Shown here piece by piece: positions 26,794-63,828 of a stretch of 64,000 bases of DNA. Made by a program: the position numbers and the translations under genes. Below the pieces are notes generated by a model, which was not told where the DNA came from, searched no databases, and saw only the letters and a list, made by a program, of their open reading frames with translations. Within the stretch, counting starts at the first letter, position 1, and every line of letters starts with the position of its first letter. This stretch comes from an uncultured Chitinophaga sp. Lineage in GTDB: Bacteria > Bacteroidota > Bacteroidia > Cytophagales > Cyclobacteriaceae. The stretch is taken from contig CABHOK010000003.1 in assembly GCA_902168205.1 (NCBI GenBank), positions 1,364,001-1,428,000 of the forward strand. The letters are read 5' to 3'.

Positions 26794-26883
26794 GTGTTGA
26801 TGTGTTGGCGTGTTGATGTAGATTAAGTTGCTGTTGCTAAAGTTATTTTACTTCAGCACATGAGCACTCCAACACCTCAACAC
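26794..26883. repeat. Intergenic inverted repeat, GTGTTGATGT-type units
   Basis: The 26-bp segment 26794-26819 and the reverse complement of 26858-26883 match at 22 of 26 positions. Both arms are built of degenerate GTGTTGA units. The element lies upstream of the thioesterase gene and the thr leader, and resembles the other intergenic repeats in layout but not in unit sequence. Confidence 0.7.
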
Positions 26884-26988
26884 ATCCAGAACATTCGATT
26901 GCATAGCGCTAATAAGCGTTAGTTCGTGCAAAAATCTAAAAAAATAGTTTGCAATCAAGTATATCATTTCATTATTTCGGTGCGCCTT

Positions 26989-27105
26989 ATGCAAGCAACA
27001 CAAAATATAGCATCATCTTCTTTCTTCTCATTCGGGAAGACGATTGCTTGCATTACCCCGATAGCTATTATTTCTATTATTACCATTACCATCATTACGG
27101 GGTGA
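26989..27105 (+). CDS. thrL: Threonine operon leader peptide, Ile/Thr-rich
   Basis: A 38-codon frame: ATG at 26989, TGA at 27103. The last 17 residues (ITPIAIISIITITIITG) contain nine Ile and four Thr, the two amino acids whose levels should report on this pathway. It lies 115 bp before thrA, as thrL does in E. coli, where ribosome stalling at Thr/Ile codons controls attenuation. A weak promoter is possible: TTCG (26923-26926), 18 bp, TAGTTTGC (26945-26952). The gene is too short for the usual size cut-off and lies in a different frame from a longer, unlikely Tyr-rich frame. Confidence 0.8.
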   Translation: MQATQNIASSSFFSFGKTIACITPIAIISIITITIITG

Positions 27106-27133
27106 CCCCGTGCTCATTCTATACCCCGGCCCC
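26989..27133 (+). promoter_or_regulatory. Attenuator with mutually exclusive hairpins before thrA
   Basis: Three features can be read directly. First, ATGCAAGCAA (26989-26998, including the leader start codon) pairs perfectly with TTGCTTGCAT (27044-27053). Second, CGGGGT (27098-27103), at the leader stop codon, can pair with ACCCCG at 27055-27060, with ACCCCG at 27105-27110, or with ACCCCG at 27123-27128. Third, the 27055-27060 partner is the start of the run of Thr/Ile control codons. Competing partners of one segment are the hallmark of attenuation: a stalled ribosome would mask the first partner. No U-tract follows the short hairpin, so the final step may be Rho-dependent or translational. 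Confidence 0.65.
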
Positions 27134-27219
27134 ATTAGGATTATGTCCGTCTCCAGGAGATGATATCGTAAACCAACAGTTTAAAAATAGAATACTACAC
27201 CCTGAATAATTAATTGTTC

Positions 27220-29664
27220 ATGAAAATATTAAAGTTCGGTGGCTCATCGGTAGCTACCCCTGCGAGAATACAATCGGTTATAGAAATAGTAAAGCCTTAT
27301 CTGAAAGGCGATGTTGCTGTAGTCTTTTCCGCTTTTGGCGGAGTTACCGATGTGTTGATTGGCATTAGTAAACTCGCACTGGAAAGTAATCTCGAATACA
27401 AAACAAAACTGGCTGATATCGAGAAGCGTCACCTCGATGCTGTACGCGAATTGATCGGTGTACAAAAACAAAGCAGCATTCTGGCCCAGGTAAAGTTTAT
27501 GATCAATGAACTGGAAGATGTACTGCACGGTGTCTTCCTGGTGAAAGAGCGTACACCCCGCACGTTGGATTACGTCATGAGCTTTGGTGAGCGCCTGTCT
27601 GCCTATATTATTTCAGAAGCTTTTAAAGATAAAGGTGTAGCAGCTGAATTTCTCGATGCGCGCAAAGTAGTGCGCACCGATGGACACTTTGGTTATGCGA
27701 AAGTAGATTTTGATGTAACGAACAAACTCATCAACGATCACTTTAAAAATCATACAGACCTGCAGATCATCACTGGATTTATAGGTACATCCGAGACGGG
27801 TGAAACAACAACGCTCGGTCGCAGTGGTTCTGATTATACTGCTGCCATCTTTGCCGGTGCTTTACATGCAACGGATCTTGAAATATGGACCGATGTAGAT
27901 GGCATGATGACAGCCGATCCACGCATGGTAAAGAAGGCGTTTACTGTGCCGCAGATGAGCTACGAGGAAGCGATGGAGCTATCGCACTTCGGAGCGAAAG
28001 TAATTTTCCCGGCTACCATGCAACCCGCCATGGTAAATCATATACCTATCTGGATCAAGAATACGTTTAACCCGACTTTTGAGGGAACGGTTATTCACGC
28101 CAATGCCAAGAACGGTAAACTCATCAAAGGTATATCTTCGATGAACAATGTGAGTTTACTCAACGTGCAGGGAAGTGGTTTGTTAGGAGTAGTAGGAGCG
28201 TCTATGCGATTATTTGCTACACTGGCACGTGAAAAGATAAGCGTGATCCTGATCAGCCAGGCATCATCGGAGCACTCTATATGTTTTGCTATTGAAAATC
28301 AGTACACACGTCAGGCCAAGTCGGCTATCGATAAAGAATTTCAGTACGAGATACGCAACGAAGAAATTGATGAAGTACAGGTGGAAACGGATTTGTCTAT
28401 CGTAGCCGTTGTAGGCGATGGTATGAAACATAGTCCTGGTACCAGTGGACGCATGTTCAGTTCGTTGGGTAAGAACGGTGTGAACGTAATGGCGATTGCG
28501 CAGGGATCATCCGAGCGAAATATATCGGCCGTGGTTCGTCAGGCCGATGTAGCCAAAGCGTTGAATGCATTGCACGAAGCATTCTTCCTGTCGGATCGTA
28601 AAGTATTAAATGTATTCCTGGTGGGAACCGGTCTGATCGGCAACTCCCTGGTAAATATGATCGAGGAGCAGTATAATAAGCTCGCGAAAGAAAATCTGTT
28701 GGAGGTAAATGTAGTGGCTGTAGCGAACAGTAAGAAAATGCTGTTCAATGAAGAAGGCCTTAAACTGTCATCGTGCATAGACGAGATGAAGAAAGATGGC
28801 CAGTCAATGAACATGAAAGAGTTTGCTGATAAAATGGTAAGTCTCAATTTACCGAACAGCATCTTTGTGGATTGTACTTCGAGCGAAGAAGTTACGGCTG
28901 TATATGAAACTATATTGTCTGCCAATATTTCCATTGTAACACCGAACAAGAAAGCGAATTCGGCTTCGATGGAGCAATATACCAACCTCAAAAAGACAGC
29001 CTTTAAACGTGGTGTCAAGTTCCTGTACGAGACCAACGTAGGGGCTGGACTACCCGTGATCAACACACTGAACGATTTGTTGCTGAGTGGTGACAAAGTG
29101 ATCAGCATTGAAGGTGTATTGAGCGGAACGCTGAACTTTATCTTCAGCTCCTATACTGACGGCAAGAAGTTTAGCGATGTAGTAAAAGAAGCCAAAGAAA
29201 AAGGCTATACCGAACCAGACCCACGCGATGATTTAAGTGGTATGGACGTAGCGCGTAAGATATTGATCTTGTCTCGCGAAACCGGATTATCATTTGAGCT
29301 CAGCGATATACAGGTAGAAAACCTGGTGCCGGTTGATTGTCAGAAAGGAAGTGTAGATGATTTCTTCAAGACACTCGAGAAACACGATGCATCGTTCGAG
29401 AAACTTCGCGATGAAGCCTTTTCCAAAGGAGAGAAGCTTCGCTATATGGCGGTATTGAACGAAGGCAAAGTGAGTGTGAAACTCGGTTCGGTAAACAGCC
29501 AGCATCCGTTCTATTCACTCTCCGGTAGCGACAACATTATACTGCTTACTACCGAACGATACCATGAACGCCCGATGGTAATACGCGGCCCCGGAGCAGG
29601 AGCAGCGGTAACAGCAGCTGGTGTATTTGCCGATGTGATCCGTATAGGACACTACGCGAAGTAG
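27220..29664 (+). CDS. thrA: Bifunctional aspartokinase / homoserine dehydrogenase
   Basis: A protein of 814 aa from ATG 27220 (an alternative TTG two codons earlier is unlikely). The N-terminal aspartokinase has KFGGSSVATPARI and TDVDGMMTADPR, followed by ACT regulatory repeats (~300-450: VNVQGSGLLGVVG-type and VGDGMKHSPGTSG). The C-terminal homoserine dehydrogenase has the NAD-binding FLVGTGLIGNSLV (~465) and ETNVGAGLPVINTLNDLL, with GTLNFIFSSY. It catalyses the first and third steps from aspartate to threonine/methionine. The leader peptide upstream suggests attenuation; the ACT domains suggest allosteric control by threonine. Confidence 0.97.
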   Translation: MKILKFGGSSVATPARIQSVIEIVKPYLKGDVAVVFSAFGGVTDVLIGISKLALESNLEYKTKLADIEKRHLDAVRELIGVQKQSSILAQVKFMINELEDVLHGVFLVKERTPRTLDYVMSFGERLSAYIISEAFKDKGVAAEFLDARKVVRTDGHFGYAKVDFDVTNKLINDHFKNHTDLQIITGFIGTSETGETTTLGRSGSDYTAAIFAGALHATDLEIWTDVDGMMTADPRMVKKAFTVPQMSYEEAMELSHFGAKVIFPATMQPAMVNHIPIWIKNTFNPTFEGTVIHANAKNGKLIKGISSMNNVSLLNVQGSGLLGVVGASMRLFATLAREKISVILISQASSEHSICFAIENQYTRQAKSAIDKEFQYEIRNEEIDEVQVETDLSIVAVVGDGMKHSPGTSGRMFSSLGKNGVNVMAIAQGSSERNISAVVRQADVAKALNALHEAFFLSDRKVLNVFLVGTGLIGNSLVNMIEEQYNKLAKENLLEVNVVAVANSKKMLFNEEGLKLSSCIDEMKKDGQSMNMKEFADKMVSLNLPNSIFVDCTSSEEVTAVYETILSANISIVTPNKKANSASMEQYTNLKKTAFKRGVKFLYETNVGAGLPVINTLNDLLLSGDKVISIEGVLSGTLNFIFSSYTDGKKFSDVVKEAKEKGYTEPDPRDDLSGMDVARKILILSRETGLSFELSDIQVENLVPVDCQKGSVDDFFKTLEKHDASFEKLRDEAFSKGEKLRYMAVLNEGKVSVKLGSVNSQHPFYSLSGSDNIILLTTERYHERPMVIRGPGAGAAVTAAGVFADVIRIGHYAK

Positions 29665-29818
29665 CGGGAGTCGTTATCCGTTAATGGTTATCTGTTAATC
29701 GTTAATGGTTATCCGGTACGGCTAAATATATACCTCGCACCCACGACACACTCACACGAATAACGATTAACTAATAACGGTTAACGACTAATAAAGCTTG
29801 ACCGATAACGACCAAAGA
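29665..29818. repeat. Intergenic inverted repeat between thrA and thrB, GTTATCCGTTAATC-type units
   Basis: The left block (29671-29716) is a run of CGTTATCCGTTAATGGTTATCTGTTAATC-like units, and the right block (29759-29813) is their complement (CGAATAACGATTAACTAATAACGGTTAACGAC and CCGATAACGACC). Together they can fold into a long imperfect hairpin inside the thr operon. The same unit type recurs at 17111-17343, 43956-44170 and 63669-63690. It could reduce read-through from thrA to thrB or stabilise the upstream mRNA. Confidence 0.75.
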
Positions 29819-30751
29819 ATGAAATCAGTAAAAGCATCTGCACCCGCTACGGTAGCGAACGTATCCTGCGGCTTTGATATTTTTGGATTTGCCGTAGAAG
29901 CACCGGCAGATGAAGTGATCGTAACGCTCACCGATAACCCGGGTGTTACGATATCAAAAATTGTTGGCGATGATGGAAGACTTCCACGGGAAGCGGAGAA
30001 GAATACTTCCGGTGTAGCCGTGCTTGAATTTTTAAAAGCGATCGACAGTAAACTAGGCGCAAACATCGAGCTCTATAAACATCTTCCGTTAGGCAGTGGT
30101 ATGGGGTCGAGTGCTGCGAGTTCGGCTGCTGCTCTTGTTGCCATCAACGAATTGCATGGTAATCCGCTTACGCGTGAACAACTGCTGCCATTCGCGATGG
30201 AATCAGAACGCATTGCGTGTGGTTCTGCGCATGCCGATAACGTTGCGCCATCCTTGCTCGGAGGTTTCGTACTTATCCGCGGGTATGCACCGCTGGATGT
30301 AGCGAGTATACCTACGCCTGCTGAACTGTATTGTACGCTGGTACATCCACACCTGGAACTTAAGACAGAAGATTCCAGACGTGTGCTGAAGCCCAGCATA
30401 CCCATCAAAGATGCGATCACGCAATGGGGAAATATAGCCGGTATGGTTGTAGGGTTGATGAAACCGGATTACGGATTGATTCAACGTTCACTTCATGATG
30501 TTGTGGCCGAACCGATTCGCTCGGTGTTGATTCCGGGTTTTCATAAAATCAAGGAAGAAGCGATGCAGGCCGGTGCACTGGGATGCGGTATATCCGGATC
30601 AGGCCCCACTATATTTGCGCTCTCGTCCGAGCGCGCTGTTGCCGAACGTGTAGGCAAGGCGATGCAACAACAGTTCGATCTTTTGAAACTGAAGAGCGAT
30701 GTGTTTGTGTCGCGCATCAATGGCGAAGGTGCCAAAATACTGAGTGCATAA
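29819..30751 (+). CDS. thrB: Homoserine kinase
   Basis: A 310-aa GHMP kinase. The start was set at ATG 29819 (MKSVKASAPATVANVSCGFD), since the longer frame from TTG 29798 begins inside the repeat. The ATP-binding motif is PLGSGMGSSAASSAAAL (~88-104), and the C-terminal GHMP motif is GCGISGSGPTIFALSS. It phosphorylates homoserine in the threonine pathway. It follows thrA and precedes thrC by 66 bp, all on one strand, so the thrABC operon is complete. Confidence 0.96.
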   Translation: MKSVKASAPATVANVSCGFDIFGFAVEAPADEVIVTLTDNPGVTISKIVGDDGRLPREAEKNTSGVAVLEFLKAIDSKLGANIELYKHLPLGSGMGSSAASSAAALVAINELHGNPLTREQLLPFAMESERIACGSAHADNVAPSLLGGFVLIRGYAPLDVASIPTPAELYCTLVHPHLELKTEDSRRVLKPSIPIKDAITQWGNIAGMVVGLMKPDYGLIQRSLHDVVAEPIRSVLIPGFHKIKEEAMQAGALGCGISGSGPTIFALSSERAVAERVGKAMQQQFDLLKLKSDVFVSRINGEGAKILSA

Positions 30752-30817
30752 AACGCAATCCCGCAGCACGAAATATATACTTAGAAAAAAGAACAACTTT
30801 ATAACAGGCCACCATCG

Positions 30818-32122
30818 ATGAAATTTTATAGTACGAACAACCCGAATTTAAAAGTTGATTTAAAGGAAGCTGTAACACAAGGACTCGCCCCGGATAACGG
30901 ACTTTATATGCCCGAGTACATTCCGGTATTACCGAAGGAGTTCTTTGATACCATTGACACCAAATCATTTCAGGAGATTGCTTTTACGGTAGCGAAAAAT
31001 ATTATCGGTGATGATGTGCCGGCCGATGAATTGAAACGCATTGTAGACCACACCATTCAGTTTGATGCACCGGTGGTTGAAGTAGATGATCACGCGTATG
31101 CGCTTGAACTTTTTCACGGACCTACATTGGCGTTTAAAGATTTTGGCGCACGCTTCATGTCGCAGTTGCTGGGCTACTTTGCACGCCAGCAGAAGCAGGA
31201 GATCGTTATTCTCGTAGCAACATCCGGTGATACCGGCAGTGCGGTTGCCAACGGATTTTTAGGCGTAAAGGGAACGAAGGTAATTGTACTATATCCTTCC
31301 GGTAAAGTAAGTGATATACAGGAGAAACAATTTACAACGCTGGGACAGAACGTTACGGCACTGGAGATTGATGGTACGTTCGATGATTGCCAACGCCTGG
31401 TAAAAGAAGCGTTTCTGGATGATGTGTTACGGAAGAAGTATTTTCTCACCTCTGCCAATTCAATCAATATAGCGCGACTTATACCGCAGTCGTTTTACTA
31501 TTTCTACGCGTATGCGCAGATGAAAGATAAAGCGAAGGATCTCGTGTTCTCCATACCGAGCGGTAACTTCGGTAACTTAACGGGCGGCCTACTGGCGCAG
31601 CGCATGGGGTTGCCCATCCGTAAATTTATAGCGACCACCAACGTGAACGATGTAGTGCCGGAGTACCTGCGCACGAACGTATTTGCACCGCGCCCGTCTC
31701 AGCAAACCATCAGCAACGCTATGGATGTTGGTAATCCAAGCAACTTCGCCCGCATGCTTGATCTCTTCCAGAACGATTTTACTAAACTTTCAGCAGATAT
31801 AGCCGGCTATTCATTCTCTGATGATGAGACGCGTGCTGCTATGCGCCATGTATTTGCTTCAACAGAGTATATATTGGATCCGCACGGAGCGATTGGCTAC
31901 CTCGGATTGATCAAATACCTCGAAGAACAGGGAGAAGATGTAACGGGAATTTTCCTCGAGACAGCGCACCCGGCCAAGTTCAAGGAAGTTGTAGATGATA
32001 CGCTGGGTAAATCCATTGATATACCCAAGCCTCTGCAGCACTTCCTGCAGCAAAGCAAGAAGAGTATAGCGCTGAAGAGCGACTATACCAGCTTTAAAGA
32101 TTTTCTTCTGAATACTCTGTAG
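30818..32122 (+). CDS. thrC: Threonine synthase
   Basis: A 434-aa PLP enzyme of the threonine synthase family. FHGPTLAFKDFGARFM carries the PLP-binding Lys107; SGDTGSAVANGF and PSGNFGNLTGGLLA are the phosphate/PLP-binding loops. It converts O-phosphohomoserine to threonine, the last step. It ends the thr operon, and its last 29 bp overlap the 3' end of the convergent GtrA gene, so no terminator hairpin separates them. Confidence 0.97.
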   Translation: MKFYSTNNPNLKVDLKEAVTQGLAPDNGLYMPEYIPVLPKEFFDTIDTKSFQEIAFTVAKNIIGDDVPADELKRIVDHTIQFDAPVVEVDDHAYALELFHGPTLAFKDFGARFMSQLLGYFARQQKQEIVILVATSGDTGSAVANGFLGVKGTKVIVLYPSGKVSDIQEKQFTTLGQNVTALEIDGTFDDCQRLVKEAFLDDVLRKKYFLTSANSINIARLIPQSFYYFYAYAQMKDKAKDLVFSIPSGNFGNLTGGLLAQRMGLPIRKFIATTNVNDVVPEYLRTNVFAPRPSQQTISNAMDVGNPSNFARMLDLFQNDFTKLSADIAGYSFSDDETRAAMRHVFASTEYILDPHGAIGYLGLIKYLEEQGEDVTGIFLETAHPAKFKEVVDDTLGKSIDIPKPLQHFLQQSKKSIALKSDYTSFKDFLLNTL

Positions 32123-63752: not shown

Positions 63753-63828
63753 TGGTTGTCCGACCAGGGCTCGAACCTGGACTTTCCTGAATCAAAATCA
63801 GGCGTGTTGCCAGTTACACCATCGGACA
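63753..63828 (-). tRNA. tRNA-Gln (anticodon TTG)
   Basis: Reading the minus strand, TGTCCGA (63828-63822) pairs with TCGGACA (63763-63757). The anticodon arm is CCTGA-TTTTGAT-TCAGG, so the anticodon is TTG (Gln). The T-arm is CCAGG-TTCGAGC-CCTGG. The discriminator is A (63756), and CCA (63755-63753) is encoded. A terminator-like hairpin follows. Confidence 0.95.

Follow-up and report, generated by a model that had tools for sequence, protein, structure and literature searches.

A conserved Thr/Ile leader with a hairpin around its stop codon upstream of thrABC in Bacteroidota, a candidate nonclassical attenuator

RESULTS

A Thr/Ile leader frame precedes thrABC

The window (i.e., the whole 64,000-nucleotide stretch that was analyzed) lies on contig 3 of a 7.3-Mb genome and carries a threonine biosynthesis operon on its forward strand, in the order thrA-thrB-thrC (27220 to 32122). 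On the basis of profile matches, thrA encodes a bifunctional aspartate kinase/homoserine dehydrogenase I (27220 to 29664; NF006959, 1,064 bits, cutoff of 726), thrB a homoserine kinase (29819 to 30751; NF002288, 397 bits, cutoff of 194), and thrC a threonine synthase (30818 to 32122; TIGR00260, 307 bits, cutoff of 167). The closest public thrA belongs to MAG UBA5867 (98% identity), and the closest named species by thrA is Ohtaekwangia koreensis (92% identity).

A frame of 38 codons plus TGA lies upstream of thrA on the same strand (26989 to 27105; translation, MQATQNIASSSFFSFGKTIACITPIAIISIITITIITG followed by the stop). Its coordinates and composition, with nine Ile and four Thr in the last 17 residues, are as the earlier note on this DNA had given them. 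Codons 22 to 37 (27052 to 27099, forward strand) form a run in which 13 of 16 specify Thr or Ile. The locus thus has the arrangement of the broad class of leader peptides, a short frame with codons for pathway products 5' of a biosynthetic operon, and conservation of the frame suggests that it is translated. Promoter-like boxes precede it (26948 to 26979, forward strand): TTTG (26948 to 26951) and, after 20 nt, TTATTTCG (26972 to 26979), which we take to match the Bacteroidota promoter consensus. Both boxes recur in close relatives, and the RNA would be expected to start only a few nucleotides 5' of the leader ATG. Rfam searches of the whole window at the gathering threshold, and of 26850 to 27300 up to an E value of 10, matched no amino acid leader family. 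A tRNA gene (63756 to 63828, reverse strand) was the sole match in the window at the gathering threshold.

The leader frame is conserved in relatives. Under an automatic rule, leaders of the same type, with Thr/Ile codons ending at a stop-codon hairpin (S1, described below), preceded thrA at 84 of the 131 family loci that were fetched (out of 168 genomes with a match) and in 36 of 68 genera. Of these 84 loci, 70 have an S1 whose left arm is ACGGG, and in 14 it is ACCCC. Among the remaining loci, 5 of 131 carried classical attenuators (3 genera), and 42 of 131 were of neither type. The terminal element ACGGGGT was found within 200 nt of thrA in 43 of 44 named near relatives (L036 to L080 without L075), and a comparable Thr/Ile leader was absent from 32 named loci at greater distance (Runella, Spirosoma, Dyadobacter, and others). 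Families elsewhere in the class also have S1-like Thr leaders, at L328, L339, and L340, and less clearly at L343 and L344, beside classical Thr leaders at L336, L338, and probably L329.

Codon usage was profiled in 117 loci (100 nonredundant) selected by the pattern ACGGG[GCT] 5' of thrA, which fixes Thr at codon -2 and Gly at codon -1 and makes these two positions uninformative; the reading-frame, stop-codon, and spacing results are independent of them. In the nonredundant set, Thr and Ile accounted for 61% of codons -12 to -4 in the leader frame versus 4% and 2% in the two alternative frames. Position -3 was Ile in 85 loci, and a stop codon followed the Gly codon in 94. The combined Thr and Ile frequency peaked in the codons closest to S1 (mean of 0.83 at -6 to -3 versus 0.52 at -12 to -7). 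With frame and codons conserved and thrA-thrB-thrC downstream, the proposal that a Thr/Ile leader peptide controls thrABC is strongly supported; the leader is real and conserved, and its proposed action as a Thr/Ile sensor is well supported.

One set of loci, here called the Y group, comprises genera (g65, g48, g41, etc.) that we take to be Algoriphagus-like. In six of its thr leaders (L124, L126, L129, L132, L133, and L135), Met and Phe codons are frequent 5' of the Thr run. Methionine sensing is conceivable there, because the aspartate pathway also yields Met as an end product.

The leader stop codon is the loop of a conserved hairpin

The leader ends in the hairpin S1 (27097 to 27111, forward strand; ACGGGG-UGA-CCCCGU), which is kept in relatives. 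Its arms, ACGGGG (27097 to 27102) and CCCCGT (27106 to 27111), enclose the leader stop codon UGA (27103 to 27105) as the loop, and no U-tract follows. The suggestion that the stop codon forms part of the switch was right, and it concerns the key feature of the locus.

The earlier note had paired CGGGGT (27098 to 27103) with three ACCCCG copies (27055, 27105, and 27123) to give three competing hairpins. All of these elements are present, but the pairing with 27105 is impossible as written, as it would leave a 1-nt loop. The proximal hairpin, in the form of S1, proved general, but its proposed competitors did not. The upstream copy at 27055, considered as a switch partner, was rejected as not conserved (ACCACG in L037, absent in L036). 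The distal copy at 27123 offers a possible alternative GGGG:CCCC pairing in thr leaders and is absent in his leaders.

In 25 of 33 Y-group sequences, 97% of S1 pair cells were formed, a count in which the left arm is fixed by the choice of loci, and double changes occurred at pair 6 in 2 loci. S1 is nearly invariant within this group, and its internal covariation is weak. The inner pair had changed on both sides to C:G in L136, L138, and L146, and L145 kept the hairpin though its stop codon had moved downstream. Between groups, the stem was wholly replaced with pairing retained: ACGGG:CCCGT and ACCCC:GGGGT upstream of thrA and TTCCTCC:GGAGGAA upstream of hisG. In part of the near relatives (many of L048 to L078), S1 was shorter or imperfect, with right arms GCTCCCG or GCGCCC, and the downstream motif described next was closer or absent.

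A motif follows S1 at a set distance

An 8-nt spacer (27112 to 27119, forward strand) separates S1 from TATACCCCGGCC (27120 to 27131, forward strand), the window's form of CATATNGCC(CC), which includes the distal ACCCCG (27123). The window's copy is degenerate (TATACCCC). In 70 of 95 nonredundant loci across relatives, the motif YATAY, with CATATNGCC as its best form, began 8 to 11 nt 3' of S1, versus an expectation of 2.8 ± 1.6 from 500 shuffles (maximum of 9). By group, it did so in 55 of 76 ACGGG thr loci, 11 of 13 ACCCC thr loci, and 4 of 6 his loci, and it was missing from this interval in 25 of the 95. The count covers S1 stems ending in CCC[GA]T, GGGGT, or GAGGAA; the GCTCCCG type and the his locus L227 fall outside it. 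In the ACCCC group, the position of the stop codon shifts and the hairpin-to-motif spacing stays constant. The spacer is poor in G (27 G in 459 nt over 51 chosen loci).

In genome G101, 43 sites of CATATCGCC or CATATAGCC (CATAT[CA]GCC) were found, and 2 of them, in the his and thr leaders, had a GC-rich hairpin 6 to 12 nt upstream. The combination of S1 and motif was rejected as a terminator of general use, since only these two leaders carry it among the 43 sites. In the window's genome, the thr site was the sole perfect match to the pattern ACGGGGTRRCYCC, with 15 one-mismatch matches.

A sequence similar to the late CATATNGCC, AATATAGC, lies early in the leader (27004 to 27011, forward strand). 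Of 120 leaders, 44 had [ACT]ATAT at ATG+12 to +28, versus 9.5 ± 3.0 after codon shuffling. In many leaders (thr, his, and trp), the early copy (best form, CATATCGCC) stands mostly 15 to 19 nt after the ATG, and it was also seen at L130, L169, L178, and L179. It might be a promoter-proximal pause site.

Two further hairpins flank S1 and its motif

Hairpin H (27148 to 27162, forward strand), with a CCAGG apex and no U-tract after it, lies between the motif and thrA without overlapping the thrA start. We evaluated its 8-pair helix, centered on C[CA]AGG, in 19 loci from the group of the window and groups neighboring it (21 were looked at, and two were duplicates). The helix was 85.5% paired, and there were 33 double-change cells versus 12.5 in shuffled data, a value that none of 500 shuffles reached. 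In the window, 6 of the 8 pairs form. A hairpin at the same position varies similarly, though less strongly, in the 25 Y-group loci, and it is visible by eye in the his versions. A pairing of the motif GCC with the left arm of H (GCC:GGC) was rejected, as it gave no convincing covariation.

The first codons of the leader, ATGCAAGCAA (26989 to 26998, forward strand), pair perfectly over 10 bp with TTGCTTGCAT (27044 to 27053, forward strand), as had been claimed; none of 500 shuffles reached this length. The window has a start-proximal hairpin like the 1:2 hairpin of classical attenuators. The pairs are replaced in relatives, by ATGAAAGCA:TGCTTTCAT in L043 and L016 and by ATGAACG:CGTTCAT in L017, and the best partner of the start codon is often 42 to 53 nt 5' of S1. 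Over 68 loci, the longest start-codon complement averaged 6.0 versus 4.9 in shuffles; 11 loci were individually below a P value of 0.05, and the window's 10 bp is exceptional. The start-codon pairing is partly conserved, and it is more weakly supported than the leader, S1, the spacing, and H.

The same layout occurs upstream of hisG and differs from classical leaders

S1 was found 5' of hisG in 7 of 19 genomes (L227, L236, L237, L238, L239, L241, and L242), and in 6 of the 19 it was followed by the motif; L236 has S1 only. These his leaders end in HHFHHSS and the stop codon, or a close variant, and their hairpin sequence is unrelated to that of the thr leaders. Among 27 his upstream regions from elsewhere in the class, inspection by eye revealed mostly classical terminators and no S1-type leader with the motif. 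At one of these other-family loci (L400, hisG of genome G234), the leader HHRHCGDR has a hairpin, CGCCA-TTG-TGGCG, right 5' of its stop codon, with no obvious U-tract terminator and no CATAT motif; it is perhaps an independent stop-codon hairpin. The leuC upstream regions revealed nothing clear.

Using one relaxed search, we found intrinsic terminators at all of the 37 classical loci compared: 17 of 17 trp loci (unselected), 10 of 10 non-S1 his loci (L226 and L228 left out), and 5 of 5 ilv and 5 of 5 classical thr loci (both picked by eye; 16 of 21 ilvD loci were left uncounted, and L250 also looks classical). The same search detected terminator-like elements in 10 of 100 ACGGG thr loci, 0 of 13 ACCCC thr loci, and 1 of 7 S1-type his loci, and the four thr positives that were inspected, as well as the his positive, were S1 itself with a T-rich spacer. 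In the window, no intrinsic terminator was found on the forward strand between 26000 and 28000, which bears out the missing U-tract reported earlier.

The position of the regulatory codons differs as well. In S1-type leaders, the run reaches S1 (0 nt) and is separated from the stop by one codon in ACGGG thr leaders and by two in his leaders. In classical his leaders (10 loci), it ends 49 to 67 nt before the terminator and 7 to 12 codons before the stop codon, and in classical thr leaders (5 loci), the corresponding values are 49 to 59 nt and 7 to 11 codons. The trp run-to-terminator median is 63 nt; only the median is used, as the distances span -79 to 178 nt and include at least one wrong terminator pick.

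Both layouts coexist in this lineage. The classical Thr/Ile attenuators with true terminators (L148, L157, L176, L202, and L207) belong to three genera of the same family, within which the layout of the thr operon seems to have changed. In the window's genome, his (L229, GLHHHHHG leader) and trp (L281, AWWWH leader) are preceded by classical attenuators with U-tract terminators. Classical ilv attenuators, with leaders of the FIILI type and terminators of the TGCCTCA type, occur at L251, L252, L253, L262, and L244, in genomes where the thr leader is S1 type.

DISCUSSION

A proposed mechanism

Comparison among relatives supports a leader with terminal Thr/Ile codons, S1, a motif at a set spacing, and H. 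We consider it moderately probable that these belong to a nonclassical ribosome-mediated attenuator of thrABC, in which a stalled ribosome masks S1 and RNA polymerase is otherwise stopped just downstream. Transcription would begin just 5' of the leader ATG, and a ribosome would translate the leader close behind the polymerase. At low levels of charged tRNA-Thr or tRNA-Ile, the ribosome would stall at the last Thr/Ile codons; its body would cover the left arm of S1, S1 would stay unfolded, and the polymerase would proceed into thrABC (ON). When both amino acids are plentiful, the ribosome would proceed to the stop codon that forms the S1 loop and then depart. The freed S1 would then fold at the polymerase exit, with the polymerase 10 to 15 nt ahead on the CATATNGCC-type sequence, where it would be held and released (OFF), a step without a U-tract that NusA, NusG, or Rho may aid. 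Further rounds of leader translation would be restrained by the start-codon hairpin, which could confine translation to the first ribosome because it contains or adjoins that codon.

The ribosome footprint extends about 15 nt 3' of the first base of the P site. On that basis, A-site codons -6 to -2 would put the ribosome over the left arm of S1, and the His codons of HHFHHSS are placed likewise relative to S1. Direct masking of S1 would therefore explain the position of the regulatory codons without an antiterminator. Pause hairpins act 11 to 12 nt (10 to 13 nt) behind the RNA 3' end, according to excerpts of PMC12288461. Measured from S1, this distance falls in the motif and suggests, by analogy, that S1 may stop the polymerase. 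Against the proposed mechanism, an early stall would leave S1 free, because the Thr/Ile run is long in the window's clade (16 codons). The mechanism assigns no role to the covarying hairpin H, and the spaced YATAY is missing from the 25 loci noted above, as it is from L236, and is degenerate in the window. The shorter or imperfect S1 of some near relatives and the weak covariation of S1 within the Y group also count against it.

Alternative explanations

Rho-dependent attenuation is a serious rival, although we judge it unlikely. The C-rich, G-poor stretch after the stop codon would load Rho, and the stalled ribosome or S1 would alter access to it. In 48 of 51 loci, the stretch from S1 to the gene contained more C than G (mean C of 0.23 and mean G of 0.12); these loci had been selected for no more than one mismatch to CATATNGCC, a choice that favors the motif. 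A U-tract terminator is mostly absent, and the available part of PMC1262725 tentatively explains terminator-less Cys leaders of Actinobacteria in this way. However, loading of Rho requires neither a fixed S1-to-motif distance nor a hairpin such as H midway along the loading region, a ribosome stalled upstream would leave the C-rich stretch open too, and composition alone is weak evidence.

About as unlikely, or a shade more so, S1 and the motif could serve as a synchronizing pause only, the decision falling to alternative folding of H and its neighbors, with effects on elongation, thrA translation, or mRNA stability. The strong covariation of H, and the similar hairpin in Y-group thr and (by eye) his versions, would fit such a role, and stabilized pauses can allow time for RNA folding and leader translation, as stated in the portion of PMC12288461 consulted. 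Yet we found no conserved competitor of H, the upstream GCC:GGC pairing that was evaluated lacked convincing covariation, and H stays clear of the thrA start.

Action of the leader and S1 on translation (re-initiation or protection of the thrA mRNA) rather than on transcription seems less probable again. It would suit the lack of a clear terminator, and re-initiation from leader genes is proposed in many phyla in the sections of PMC4833913 available. However, the leader stop codon lies about 60 to 140 nt 5' of thrA in the named near relatives, versus a peak of 11 to 14 bp for Bacteroidetes in those sections. The S1-to-motif spacing also suits a polymerase better than a ribosome, because the stop codon moves in the ACCCC group and the hairpin-to-motif spacing stays.

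A classical attenuator of the thrL type, with its antiterminator and intrinsic terminator, is disfavored and very improbable: the Thr/Ile leader, the start-proximal pairing like segments 1:2, the classical thr attenuators within the family, and the terminator-like elements of the relaxed search would speak for it, but no such element was found in 90 of 100 ACGGG and 13 of 13 ACCCC loci, the four positives that were inspected were S1 with a T-rich spacer, the upstream partner is not conserved, and the regulatory codons stand at the wrong distance.

Relation to known systems

The enterobacterial thrL attenuator of thrABC uses a Thr/Ile-rich leader peptide and takes ribosome stalling as its signal. 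The locus in the window resembles it in having a Thr/Ile-rich leader 5' of thrA, with stalling as the probable signal. It differs in having no U-tract terminator, no conserved 2:3 antiterminator, a stop codon in the key hairpin, and regulatory codons directly before that hairpin. The earlier view that the same logic operates here is not supported, given the scarcity of terminators (10 of 100 and 0 of 13 loci versus 17 of 17 for trp), the lack of a conserved antiterminator partner, and codons that abut the hairpin. With the classical attenuators of its own lineage (trp, ilv, his, and a few thr), the S1 layout shares runs of product amino acids; those attenuators have strong hairpins with U-tracts.

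Regulatory codons beside the stop codon and the lack of an intrinsic terminator are shared with the Cys leaders of Actinobacteria; the part of PMC1262725 that was available reports no conserved hairpin for these, whereas S1, the spaced motif, and H are conserved in the Bacteroidota leader. Hairpin-stabilized pauses (hisL and the NusG-dependent tlrB leader) place an RNA hairpin about 10 to 13 nt behind the 3' end and are used in leader-peptide regulation, as described in extracts of PMC12288461 and PMC9291695. Unlike the hairpins in those extracts, S1 is built on the last codons and stop codon of the leader and is followed by the conserved CATATNGCC; pausing at S1 is putative.

Attenuation had already been suggested for other Bacteroidota pathways, as the earlier note stated. 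Extracts of PMC9723704 mention "strong clues" of leader-peptide attenuation before amino acid operons of Flavobacterium psychrophilum, also a member of Bacteroidota, and neither a stop-codon hairpin nor a spaced motif was found in them. Short frames reminiscent of leader peptides are mentioned for B. thetaiotaomicron in extracts of PMC7366714. The words "Bacteroid" and "threonine" are absent from the premature-terminator survey PMC2965389. Among the literature matches listed, there was no stop-codon hairpin attenuator in Bacteroidota. Vitreschak et al. reportedly predicted attenuators in some Bacteroidetes in 2004 (FEMS Microbiol Lett), and the S1 layout may overlap with those predictions.

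Significance

Leader-peptide attenuation is textbook knowledge, with one standard layout, and the S1 layout is a new variation on it. We tentatively propose, as a possibility that falls short of probable, that Bacteroidota have a second class of attenuator, in which the ribosome would mask a stop-codon hairpin and the polymerase would be stopped by the series hairpin, about 9 nt, and CATATNGCC. This would be a portable module of thr and his operons that coexists with classical attenuators, and the motif, found also early in the leader, would be a lineage-specific pause signal.

The window's genome, with a new-layout thr leader and classical his and trp leaders, offers a natural comparison, as does G101, with new-layout thr and his leaders and a classical ilv leader. 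The layout is common to two unrelated operons and precedes thrA in the 36 of 68 genera examined. If the proposed mechanism is true, a conserved stop-codon hairpin layout without a U-tract would be an alternative solution to the problem that the standard layout solves, and it would point to how the RNA polymerase of Bacteroidota is stopped or paused.
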